DNA from: Acidobacteriota bacterium
Lineage (GTDB): Bacteria > Acidobacteriota > Terriglobia > Acidiferrales > UBA7541
Direction of reading: 5' to 3'
Assembly (NCBI GenBank): GCA_003224085.1
Contig: QHYK01000059.1
Location: 1-58,737 of the forward strand
DNA: 58,737 bases
Shown: piece by piece, positions 10,275-13,258 of the stretch
Layout of the letters: each line of letters opens with the position of its first letter
How positions within the stretch are numbered: position 1 is the first letter of the stretch
Notes under the pieces: generated by a model
The model's database searches: none
What the model was told of the DNA's origin: nothing
Seen by the model: the letters and a program-made list of their open reading frames with translations, nothing else
Program-made: the position numbers and the translations under genes

Positions 10275-10420
10275 CTCCATTGAAAAAAAATGCTTAGAAC
10301 GCTATTCTGCGCTTGACTTTGCGATACGCGCAGCTTATCAATGCGTTGGGGACCGAAAAATGGTCTCAAGTTTGCACGGATCCTCTCGATGAGCACGAGC
10401 AACGAACTCGAGCCTGGCCC

Positions 10421-10604
10421 TAAAAGCTTCACGGAGAAGCATGTCCTGGCGTCGTTTCATGGGCTGAGTAACCCGATGGAGTCGCTCAAGGTTCAGGCAA
10501 CCGCGCGACAGGCCGGGTGGGGAGGATTCACCGGCGGCTGAAGGTAAGTCCATTTGTGTCAGGCACTTGCCCGCCGCCGAGGTTCTTCGGTGAGCGGGTT
10601 TTTT
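10421..10604 (+). promoter_or_regulatory. Structured leader RNA upstream of the Mg2+-sensor/NRAMP operon, riboswitch-like
   Basis: Consecutive hairpins can be drawn: GCTTC/GAAGC (10426-10440), GGG/CCC around CTGAGTAA (10461-10474), a two-part stem GTCGC (10481-10485)/GCGAC (10505-10509) enclosing GGTT/AACC with loop CAGGC, and GCCGGGTG/CACCGGC (10512-10535). They are followed by a terminator. CGGCGGC at 10532-10538, overlapping the 3' arm of the last hairpin, is perfectly complementary to GCCGCCG at 10573-10579 in the 5' arm of the terminator, so an antiterminator is possible. The sequence did not match the metal riboswitch classes I can recall (M-box, yybP-ykoY, NiCo). The ligand is unknown; Mg2+ is a guess from the downstream genes. 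Confidence 0.5.
10570..10604 (+). terminator. Rho-independent terminator in the leader
   Basis: CCCGC (10570-10574) pairs with GCGGG (10594-10598), and CCGA (10577-10580) pairs with TCGG (10587-10590) around loop GGTTCT. Six T residues follow directly. It lies 75 bases before the start codon of the sensor gene and 300 bases after the CYTH gene, a position that fits attenuation of the downstream operon. Confidence 0.7.
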
Positions 10605-10678
10605 ATTGGCGAATTTCGTCCTGAAGACTCGGCCGGGAGCAGCCTAAGCACGAAGGCCTACCAAGGCAGGAGGTGAAC

Positions 10679-11920
10679 ATGGAGCTGTTCGCCACAGAAC
10701 TGATGGGCGTGAAAGCCTACGACGCTCAAGGGAATTACGTGGGTCGCGTTCGCGAGTTTTTCATCGAGCCTGCCGAGGCGCCGAATCGCATCTCGCATTT
10801 TTTGCTGTCGCGCGGCCGTTTTCAGCCGCTTGTCGCCAAACACAATCAAATTGCTTCGGTGTCCGACAAAAAGATTCAGCTCAACGTGGGAGAGAAAGCT
10901 CTGGAGATTTACCAGCCCAACGAATCCTGGTTGGCCGTGCAGAAAGACCTGCTAGACCAGCAAATCATTGACACGCGCGGCCGAAAAGTCGTGCGCGTGA
11001 ATGACCTCGACTTGGCCGAGCAGCGCTCGAACGGCAATGTGGAATTGCGCTTGACCCAGGTGGACGTGGGCCTTCCCGGCGCCGTGCGGCGGCTCCTGCA
11101 GGGCGTGGTTCCTTCCAAGGTGGTTCGCAAGCTCCAGAGCCGGCTCCCCCCGAGCACTATCCGGTGGGAATTTGTCAACTTGATCGAACCCGATCCCTTG
11201 CGGCGCGTAAAGCTGCGCATCACGCACGAGAAGCTGGAAGATCTGCACCCGGCCGATTTGGCCGACATCATGGAAGATCTCTCCGCATCGGAACGCCAGA
11301 GCATCATTGCCTCCTTGGACGAAGAGACCGCGGCTGCCGTCTTGGGCGAATTGGACGCCAGACTGACCACGCAAATCGTCGAAGACCTCGATCCCGAAAA
11401 AGCCGCCGACATTCTCGAGGAAATGCCTCCAGACGCCGCGGCCGACGTGCTCGCGGATTTGCCCAAGGAAACTTCGGAAGAGCTGCTCGAGGAGATGCCC
11501 GGCCGGGAGGCCAATGAAGTTCGGGAGCTGCTGGAATTTGACCCGGCGGCGGCGGGCGGCATGATGAACACGGAATTTGCGTTTGTCAGTGAGTCCGCGA
11601 CCAGGGACGAAGTGGTCGACCGGATGCGCAAACAAGACCATAGCTTTGACCAGCTTGACACGGTGGTCTTGCTGGATGACAAGGCTCAGTTTGCCGGCGT
11701 GGTTCCCATGGTGCGAATGCTCCTGGCCGCGCCCGACGAGCGCTTGTCGGCCTTGAAGATGGAACCGGTAGTCAGCCTTCCCCCCGAAGCCGATGAGAAG
11801 GAAGTGTTCGAGCTCTTTGACAAATACAATTTGCGAATGTTGACGGTCGTAGATAAGCAAAATCGTCCGATCGGGACCATTGCCGTGGACGACGTCGTTT
11901 CCCGTCTGGTGAAGCGCTAG
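10679..11920 (+). CDS. Channel-less MgtE-type Mg2+ sensor: PRC-barrel, MgtE N-domain and paired CBS domains
   Basis: 413 residues with no membrane segment. An N-terminal PRC-barrel-like region (MELFATELMGVKAYDAQGNY, about 1-85) and a second similar beta-rich part (about 88-150) precede an acidic helical MgtE N-domain with repeated motifs (LHPADLADIMEDL, LDPEKAADILEEM, MPPDAAADVLADL, about 185-285). A CBS pair follows (about 290-410, MMNTEFAFVSES... and MEPVVSLPPEADEKEV). In MgtE channels this cytosolic part senses Mg2+ and gates the pore; here the pore domain is missing. AGGAGG at 10668-10673 sets the start at ATG 10679 rather than the GTG at 10673. The transporter gene follows 15 bases later, so the two probably act together. 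Confidence 0.88.
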   Translation: MELFATELMGVKAYDAQGNYVGRVREFFIEPAEAPNRISHFLLSRGRFQPLVAKHNQIASVSDKKIQLNVGEKALEIYQPNESWLAVQKDLLDQQIIDTRGRKVVRVNDLDLAEQRSNGNVELRLTQVDVGLPGAVRRLLQGVVPSKVVRKLQSRLPPSTIRWEFVNLIEPDPLRRVKLRITHEKLEDLHPADLADIMEDLSASERQSIIASLDEETAAAVLGELDARLTTQIVEDLDPEKAADILEEMPPDAAADVLADLPKETSEELLEEMPGREANEVRELLEFDPAAAGGMMNTEFAFVSESATRDEVVDRMRKQDHSFDQLDTVVLLDDKAQFAGVVPMVRMLLAAPDERLSALKMEPVVSLPPEADEKEVFELFDKYNLRMLTVVDKQNRPIGTIAVDDVVSRLVKR

Positions 11921-11935: not shown

Positions 11936-13258
11936 ATGGATTGGTCCATCCTCAAGACGGGAGTGGAAAGCCTGCAGAACCGTGGCGCGGGTTTGCAGAA
12001 GCGGCTGCGCAGCCTGCGGCGCCGCCTGGTTTTGCTGCTCGCGGTGATCGGGCCGGGGCTAATCACTTCCAATGTGGACAACGATGCCGGCGGGATCACC
12101 GTTTACACGCAGGCCGGCGCACAATACGGTTACACGCTACTCTGGGCGCTCATTCCGATGACTATCGCGCTGTATGTTACCGAAGAGATGTGCGCGCGCA
12201 TGGGCGTGGTGACCGGCAAGGGGCTCTCCGACCTCATTCGGGAAGAATTCGGATTCCGCCCGACGTTTTTCGTGATGATCACGGGCTTTTTTGTCGACCT
12301 GGCAAACGTGGTAGCGGAGTTCGCGGGCGTCGCGGCAGCCATGCAAATCTTTCACGTCAGCAAATACGTTGCGGTCCCGCTCGCGGCAATACTCGTGTGG
12401 ATTTTGGTGATTCAAGGAACTTACAGACAGGTGGAAGTCATCTTTCTTTTTGCCTGCGTTCTTTATTCGTCGTACGTGTTTTCTGCGGTTCTGGCGAAGC
12501 CGGATTGGCTGATTGCCGCTAAGTACACCGTGATTCCAAATATTCGTTTCGATTTGGGCTATCTGATCACGTTGACGGGGCTCGTCGGCACCACCATTGC
12601 GCCGTGGCAGTTTTTCTATCTGCAGGCGGGATTCGTGGAGAAGAAAGTCGGGCCGAGGCAGTATCCGCAGGCGCGAGCGGACGTTATGTTTGGAAGCGTG
12701 AGCTGCATGGTTATCGTGTTCTTCATCATCGTCTGCTGTGCGGCGACCCTGTGGGTTTCCGGCCAGCGGGACATTTCGGACGCGGGGCAGGCGGCGCAGT
12801 CGCTCATTCCGTTGGCGGGCAAATGGGCTGGGGGTCTATTCGCATTTGGCCTTCTCAACGCTTCGCTTTTCGCTGCTTCCATCTTGCCATTATCTACTGC
12901 CCACGTGGTTTGCGAAGGGCTCGGGTTTGAGGCCGGGCTCGACCACAAGTTCACGGAAGCCCCGATATTCTACTGGCTGTACACCGTGTTGATCGTTGTT
13001 GGCGCGGGCGTGGTGCTTTTGCCTCATGCGCCGCTCTGGAAGATTCTGATTTTCTCCCAGGTGGGCAATGGAATCTGGCTTCCCGTGGTGGTCATTTTTA
13101 TTTTGTTGCTGGTGAACCGGCGCGACTTGATGGGTGAGTACGTAAACACCATGACCTACAACATTGTGGCCTGGGTGACCGCCATTGCCATGATTGTGCT
13201 GACTCTCATCTTGACCTATACGGCGTTCCTCCAGCAAACCCCGCTGCCGGCCGCCTGA
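11936..13258 (+). CDS. NRAMP-family divalent metal transporter, probably of the Mg2+-transporting (NRMT-like) branch
   Basis: 440 residues with 10-11 hydrophobic segments. Relatedness to NRAMP is clear from VIGPGLITSNVDNDAGG (about 38-53) in TM1 and from TM6 (about 213-230). The two metal-site motifs of Mn/Fe transporters are changed: DPGN of TM1 reads DNDAGG, and A-x-x-M-P-H of TM6 reads TTIAPWQ, so the soft-metal-binding Met is absent. Loss of that Met is characteristic of NRAMP-related Mg2+ transporters, which I recall from published work. The MgtE-type sensor gene just upstream supports Mg2+ as substrate. AGGAAGG lies 10 bases before the ATG. An Mn2+ role cannot be excluded by sequence alone. 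Confidence 0.85.
   Translation: MDWSILKTGVESLQNRGAGLQKRLRSLRRRLVLLLAVIGPGLITSNVDNDAGGITVYTQAGAQYGYTLLWALIPMTIALYVTEEMCARMGVVTGKGLSDLIREEFGFRPTFFVMITGFFVDLANVVAEFAGVAAAMQIFHVSKYVAVPLAAILVWILVIQGTYRQVEVIFLFACVLYSSYVFSAVLAKPDWLIAAKYTVIPNIRFDLGYLITLTGLVGTTIAPWQFFYLQAGFVEKKVGPRQYPQARADVMFGSVSCMVIVFFIIVCCAATLWVSGQRDISDAGQAAQSLIPLAGKWAGGLFAFGLLNASLFAASILPLSTAHVVCEGLGFEAGLDHKFTEAPIFYWLYTVLIVVGAGVVLLPHAPLWKILIFSQVGNGIWLPVVVIFILLLVNRRDLMGEYVNTMTYNIVAWVTAIAMIVLTLILTYTAFLQQTPLPAA

Follow-up and report, generated by a model that had tools for sequence, protein, structure and literature searches.

The window, a 58,737-nucleotide stretch of contig QHYK01000059.1 from the genome of an uncultured soil acidobacterium, contains a probable magnesium-uptake operon with a long leader on its forward strand (Table 1). 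The first gene encodes a protein with PRC-barrel, MgtE_N and CBS domains, which is a probable cytosolic Mg2+ sensor. Its N-terminal PRC-barrel domain lies outside the part covered by the matched solved MgtE relatives. The second gene encodes an NRAMP-related transporter, and its best solved relative is the Mg2+ transporter EleNRMT (7qia; E = 9.3e-94, compared with 3e-31 for the next match), with NDAGG and GTTIAPW common to both. The signature of NRMT proteins has been described as DxxG-TxxA (or T) (PMC8806188), and we found DxxG-TxxA in the NDAGG and GTTIAPW segments aligned with 7qia. The transporter is thus probably a Mg2+ transporter of the NRMT type, and the designation "metal operon" in an earlier note on this DNA was right and can be sharpened to this extent.

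Table 1 Features of the leader and the operon in the window
Feature	Positions	Strand	Basis
Promoter-like -35 TTGACT and -10 TATCAA, 17-nt spacer	10313-10318 / 10336-10341	+	Sequence reading; TTGACA/TTATCA-like in aligned relatives
Leader ORF, 50 codons: MSTSNELEPGPKSFTEKHVLASFHGLSNPMESLKVQATARQAGWGGFTGG; stop TGA 10539-10541	10389..10541	+	Open frame, conserved motif
Acidic-proline motif E-L-E-P-G-P, codons 6-11; proposed ribosome-destabilising sensor	10404..10421	+	[DE]P counts across leaders
SD-like GGGGAGG shortly 5' of the leader stop codon	10519..10525	+	SD-like 5-mer counts in 70 leaders
Antiterminator outer helix, 5' strand CGGCGGC (last ORF codons, directly before the stop)	10532..10538	+	Pairs with 10573-10579
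Antiterminator inner hairpin: GGTAAGTCC 10543-10551 with GG 10562-10563 and ACTTGCC 10565-10571	10543..10571	+	Predicted helix
Intrinsic terminator: stem CCCGC 10570-10574 / GCGGG 10594-10598, inner CCGA/UCGG, T-run (T6) 10599-10604	10570..10604	+	Fold -21.9 kcal/mol
Antiterminator outer helix, 3' strand GCCGCCG (within the 5' arm of the terminator)	10573..10579	+	Pairs with 10532-10538
Probable cytosolic Mg2+ sensor with PRC-barrel, MgtE_N and CBS domains; closely preceded by SD AGGAGG	10679..11920	+	Pfam; MgtE cytosolic domain 2yvy, E 8.4e-25
NRAMP-related transporter, NRMT type; NDAGG in TM1, GTTIAPW in TM6	11936..13258	+	Pfam Nramp; 7qia

Upstream of the operon, the earlier note had described a possible riboswitch or attenuator ending in a terminator, and had overlooked the promoter, the leader's upstream portion and the ORF it contains. 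From the position of the promoter-like elements, the transcript is expected to start near 10348. Across the 70 leaders described below, the distance from TTGAC to the ATG had a median of 54 nt and fell between 50 and 58 nt in 35. The final ORF codons, GGC GGC beside the stop, form the strand that would break the terminator, and the 5' arm of the terminator is common to terminator and antiterminator. We could read the terminator and the 75 nt from its T-run to the sensor ATG directly from the sequence, as previously noted, and a sequence check confirmed that CGGCGGC is the exact complement of GCCGCCG. From the sequence, the terminator is predicted to be intrinsic, with a T-run, rather than Rho-type; a simple terminator scan listed none. 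A further "last hairpin" had been proposed between CACCGGC (10529-10535) and GCCGGGTG (10512-10519); this pairing exists but needs one bulged G, and in 27 leaders it was 72.0% paired compared with 68.3% when slid by +3, with shuffles matching it in 2-13 of 500 on four of five measures. The fold of the whole 260-nt leader was not beyond chance (-97.8 kcal/mol, z = -0.72, 47 of 200 shuffles as low).

Similar leader or gene-start DNA was detected in 30 of 61 genomes, comprising 29 of one genus (the window's own genome included) and one of another family, in which the similarity covered the coding part only. The genus alignment was built from 27 of 30 loci chosen by a conserved sequence pattern; L019, L025 and L029 failed the pattern, and L011 entered after one pattern base was made optional. 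All 27 pattern-matched leaders contained a short ORF when read in the frame of the conserved GGC-stop; in most of the peptides, the N-terminus resembles M-S-x-S-x-E-x-E-P-G-P and the C-terminus G-W-G-G-F-x-x-G-stop. The middle of the ORF showed no codon-position bias (2740, 2620 and 2495 differences by position in the 27 leaders); it was open in frame in 27 of 27, with the other two frames interrupted in 22 and 5 of 27. The case for translation comes from the open frame, from the motif at the N-terminus and from the codons used in different genera. The window peptide, the sole one scanned, had no Pfam match and no credible protein family.

We then extended the comparison beyond the genus. Of 89 genomes of the family, 81 had a match to the sensor gene, and a named-genome scan, from which the best 80 of 113 relatives were taken, assigned the group to Acidobacteriota gp2, around Ca. 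Acidiferrum. After removal of redundancy, 149 sensor loci left 97 upstream regions, in which leaders were called by a rule blind to the peptide motif (an ORF stop 10-35 nt before a terminator stem, behind TTGAC). Promoter, ORF, stop and terminator were present together in 70 of the 97 regions, while 19 had no terminator and 8 had a terminator but no such ORF. In the called leaders, the stop lies 13-33 nt before an intrinsic terminator, which is followed by the MgtE_N-like sensor, and the ORFs are 26-77 aa long by rule. With the family of the named loci defined as sensor identity of at least 60%, and not by taxonomy, a leader was called in 70 of 78 loci at or above this value and in 0 of 19 below it. 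L062 and L156, in which an ORF can be seen, are among the eight family loci where the rule called no leader. Two starts needed attention: that of L007 was wrong by rule and was set by hand, and that of L024 lies upstream of the aligned start. At L070, tandem repeats of about 22 nt (GCTCAGTGCAAGCACGTTCGCC) stand directly before the sensor gene, and no leader ORF was seen within 231 nt upstream. The sensor of the operon also occurs on contigs titled Betaproteobacteria (L121, 72%) and Bacillota (L149, 64%), which are perhaps mislabelled bins.

An acidic residue followed by proline ([DE]P) was found within residues 2-16 in 61 of the 70 leaders, which are related and not independent of one another, compared with 6.9% of 173 gene N-termini (ORFs of at least 250 aa in 20 stretches of the window's genome, read from the most upstream ATG with no gene finder). 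The motif was far rarer in the two other frames of the leaders (2/70 and 1/70) and in later windows (9/141). All of GAG, GAA, GAC and GAT, and of CCT, CCC, CCG and CCA, are used to encode it. Outside the genus, the peptides resemble that of the window little beyond the early Asp/Glu-Pro (e.g., MSESEELEPFPSSK, MERSSNSEPGS, MSYSLDQEPLP, MSPQTEQEPLP). That the same amino acids are kept through different codons argues for a translated peptide and not an aptamer, and the existence of a leader peptide in the leader of the sensor-NRMT operon is nearly certain. The acidic residue of [DE]P stands at position 8 or 9 in 51 of the 61 leaders (range 3-13, the 3 being L024 with its upstream rule start), and is followed by the stop after a median of 42 codons (18 to 60; 74 for L024). 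At least two acidic residues occurred among residues 2-16 in 64 of 70 leaders, often not adjacent; outside the genus they are often 6-7 apart (E2 and E8), rather than adjacent or one apart. [DE]P was absent from residues 2-16 in nine leaders (L010, L028, L068, L071, L074, L135, L147, L161 and L163), of which L071, L074 and L135 belong to one genus. These three have short ORFs ending in GPGI, and the signal may have changed there.

Several further features of the ORFs were recorded. In 53 of 70 leaders, the stop is preceded at 11-20 nt by an SD-like 5-mer, compared with 12 of 200 other windows within the same ORFs and 28 of 260 gene ends; its spacing to the stop clusters at 14 and 18 nt. Such a site may slow or hold the terminating ribosome over the antiterminator strand. 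At the other end of the ORF, the last SD-like 4-mer upstream of the leader ATG is 13-15 nt away in 40 of 70 leaders, which is longer than usual, and is missing in 17. Out-of-frame TAG or TAA (CCTAGT, GGTAGT, AGTAGC) was seen by eye soon after the acidic-proline motif in many leaders. In L080, from the same order but another family, inspection by eye revealed an acid- and proline-rich leader ORF (MTDEGRRANRVEETRGLPSEDVPDPERGWLMPTLL) that ends about 45 nt before a terminator; it may belong to a related switch beyond the family.

Prediction supports the attenuator part of the earlier proposal: within the genus, and likewise in further genera of the family, a terminator is repeatedly accompanied by an antiterminator that competes with it. 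In the genus alignment (27 leaders), the antiterminator was 94.6% paired, the terminator 91.7%, and the antiterminator inner hairpin 97.5% of cells; within the genus the helices are nearly invariant and have no covariation power. The non-genus alignment comprised 27 of 37 leaders (omitting L061, L063, L067, L069, L071, L074, L123, L124, L135 and L146), and a 23-row subset leaves out L078, L130, L132 and L139, whose stop is placed elsewhere so that the strand is misaligned. In these 23 leaders, the six-pair outer helix was 91.3% paired, compared with at most 49.3% when slid, and one pair changed from G-C to A-U in two rows (L064 and L137; score 0.090 vs 0.062 shuffled, 8 of 500). A structure-informed version, with the four remaining rows trimmed to align the strand, gave 92.5% paired and five double-change rows in 27. 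Covariation of the outer helix is limited and rests on one base pair. The non-genus terminator was 93.8% paired, with three pairs changed on both sides. Both the terminator and the pairing that competes with it are conserved in homologous leaders.

We further modelled the folding of the 70 leaders. The terminator 5' arm paired upstream with a mean of 0.70, compared with 0.55 in shuffles, and 63 leaders exceeded their own shuffled mean, but only 18 beat nearly all of their own shuffles. Masking the footprint of a ribosome with the stop in the A site raised the mean terminator probability from 0.61 to 0.87, with a rise in 59 of 70 leaders (above 0.2 in 29) and a fall of more than 0.2 in one; a control mask placed 8 codons earlier gave a mean of 0.79. 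In this model, the geometry fits "full translation = termination", with moderate specificity for the stop position. The unmasked equilibrium terminator probability was 0.83 for the window leader and 0.75 on average for the non-genus leaders. Since the terminator is already favoured in the free leader, the ON state would need folding during transcription. The two mutually exclusive leader structures are predicted and recurrent, and their coupling to translation is a modelled one with a partly unspecific control.

The orthologous operon outside the family points to the likely signal. Of 20 loci outside the family, 7 have an M-box (RF00380) 150-400 nt ahead of the orthologous sensor, and 6 of these are distinct (L082 and L169 come from one genome); three of the 20 loci (L168, L171 and L174) have less than 460 nt upstream. 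An Nramp gene is then present in 6 of the 7 M-box loci, and the seventh (L176) ends first. The occurrence of a Mg2+ device on the same operon elsewhere is the main argument that the leader senses Mg2+. M-boxes have also been reported before nrmT genes of Clostridia and Deltaproteobacteria (PMC4072509). Within the called leaders, an Nramp gene with N-D/E-x-G-G lies downstream in 60 of 60 with enough DNA (10 had too little), and of the 35 transporter genes long enough to include it, 30 had a recognisable TM6 motif. In the window's genome (97% complete), we found no CorA, no MgtE channel and no second Nramp, and no MgtA over the cut-off, with only weak P-type ATPase matches far below it.

On balance, we favour the reading that the leader is an mgtL-like, translation-sensing transcription attenuator that is switched on at low Mg2+ through ribosome drop-off, and consider it reasonably probable. 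In silico, we observed the ORF, its conservation at the amino-acid level, the terminator, the competing helix overlapping the stop region and the NRMT character of the transporter. We infer, largely by analogy, that the ORF is translated, that ribosomes drop off, that the signal is Mg2+ and that the switch has the polarity described. RNA polymerase would start near the position given above, and a ribosome would begin the 50-codon ORF at 10389. On reaching the stop (10539), this ribosome would sit over the antiterminator's 5' strand, made up of the last codons and the GGUAAGU behind them, so that the terminator could form and transcription would end before the operon. If the ribosome dropped off early, at E-L-E-P-G-P, the antiterminator (GGCGGC..GGUAAGU / ACUUGCC..GCCGCC) would form first and the operon would be read. 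The sensor-NRMT operon would hence be on at low Mg2+ and off at high Mg2+. The ribosome exit tunnel spans 30-40 residues. The acidic-proline motif is mostly too far upstream to touch a ribosome at the stop codon from within the tunnel, the shortest leaders being the exceptions, and this fits drop-off during translation of the motif itself.

The proposed polarity follows from the destabilisation of ribosomes at low Mg2+ by early acidic-proline stretches, as in MgtL of E. coli. There, the EPDP of MgtL is reported to cause ribosome drop-off at low Mg2+, which changes the leader RNA so that mgtA is transcribed, and changing the two acidic residues of MgtL abolished expression of an mgtA fusion (PMC11282234). 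The same source describes EttA-dependent effects as requiring acidic residues within the first 30, with at least DPEE needed for a clear effect in the test construct (PMC11282234), and ribosome destabilisation in E. coli has been reported to be suppressed by high Mg2+ (PMC9718836).

Among other explanations, the same leader-peptide attenuator might respond to a signal other than Mg2+ (e.g., Mn2+, prolyl-tRNA supply or EF-P state) or operate with reversed polarity, which we consider rather unlikely. In its favour, the motif includes proline in 61 of 70 leaders, and the free window leader prefers termination. A relative also bears on this point: the NrmT of A. capsulatum, described as lying beside an MgtE_N gene without an M-box, is reported to have restored Mg2+ uptake only when Mg2+ was at low millimolar levels, to have rescued Mn2+ uptake and to resemble a Mn2+ transporter more closely (PMC4072509). 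However, acid and proline are kept together in those 61 leaders, the best solved relative of the transporter is a Mg2+ transporter with the same binding-site motifs, and the M-box at 7 of 20 orthologous loci outside the family is a Mg2+ device.

A new class of RNA-only riboswitch, with the conserved 5' and 3' blocks as aptamer and the ORF incidental, appears very unlikely. It would account for the conserved nucleotides at the two ends of the leader within the genus, for the alternative helices and for the absence of codon-position bias in the ORF middle. The same reading would suit the lack of a match to any known Rfam class, which the earlier note had already suspected: there was no match in the window at the gathering score, and none credible for the leader at E 10, where matches lay far below the cut-off only (Mu-gpT-DE and PyrR210). 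No Rfam family was matched in any of 20 family loci, and the M-box covariance model had no match in the window, in the 20 family loci or in 37 genomes of the own family (the last searched with filters that lose weak matches). Against a riboswitch, the conserved 5' block had no consistent RNA pairing partner over the 27 leaders, and the ORF frame is the one that stays open in all 27 middles, the other frames being interrupted as given above. A covariance model of the 3' part recovered 33 own-genus genomes and one weak same-family match among 399 genomes. We found no conserved, translation-independent aptamer fold; between genera, conservation lies at the amino-acid level, where acidic-proline residues survive in an open frame through different codons, and the riboswitch part of the earlier proposal is not supported. 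A third alternative, in which the ORF product is a small protein with a function of its own and the terminator sets a basal level only, is extremely unlikely. The presence of ORF and terminator in 70 of 78 family leaders would suit it. Against it, the peptides range in length from 26 to 77 aa around an unconserved middle, their C-termini vary between genera together with the encoded RNA strand, and the only peptide scanned, that of the window, had no Pfam match.

For a broader proposition, we put the chances at about even. It holds that this is a second, independently evolved Mg2+ switch by ribosome destabilisation, in which an acidic-proline leader peptide in one acidobacterial family occupies the position that the M-box has before the same operon at related loci; the last codons of the ORF and the stop region would be the antiterminator strand of an intrinsic terminator, and the SD-like site may hold the terminating ribosome. 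Literature searches, judged by titles and abstract openings, found no prior report of this leader. If true, Mg2+ sensing via ribosome stability would be a reusable design and not an enterobacterial oddity, given the distant phylum, the other transporter, the intrinsic terminator and the other layout. It would also predict which residues sense, and might account for the regulation of MgtE_N-NrmT operons that have no M-box, such as the type described for A. capsulatum (PMC4072509). A natural comparison would be offered by the same operon standing under an RNA aptamer (M-box) in some acidobacteria and under a leader peptide in others.

Among known systems, the leader resembles mgtL of the enterobacterial mgtA and corL of corA in having a short ORF in the leader of a Mg2+ transporter gene (PMC11282234, PMC11552253), and mgtL in having acidic and proline residues early in the peptide (PMC11282234). 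Efficient translation of mgtL and corL is reported to turn the operon off via a change in RNA structure, the same direction as proposed here (PMC11282234, PMC11552253). Unlike these systems, the acidobacterial leader has an intrinsic terminator, whereas Rho has been reported for Salmonella mgtA and for corA, and the same source notes that there is no evidence for Rho at E. coli mgtA (PMC11552253). It further differs from both in having an ORF of about 50 codons whose stop coincides with the switch strand, a median of about 42 codons after the motif, and in the lack of an Rfam match, the NRMT transporter family and the phylum. Similarly, in mgtQ, from the interval between mgtC and mgtB of Salmonella, Asp/Glu codons near the start are described as aborting translation and favouring the downstream gene (PMC8092293), but mgtQ has 8 codons and controls translation, with no terminator. 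The M-box (ykoK, RF00380), which precedes the orthologous sensor outside the family, is a pure RNA aptamer, unlike the acidobacterial leader ORF. The trp-type leader-peptide attenuators likewise combine an ORF with an antiterminator and an intrinsic terminator. In them, however, ribosome stalling switches the operon on, whereas the operon studied here is predicted to be switched off by a ribosome that has reached the stop, and its sensing motif is a long way 5' of the switch. With no Rfam match and an intrinsic terminator in place of Rho, the leader is not a member of the mgtL family; it looks like an independently built counterpart that works as mgtL does.
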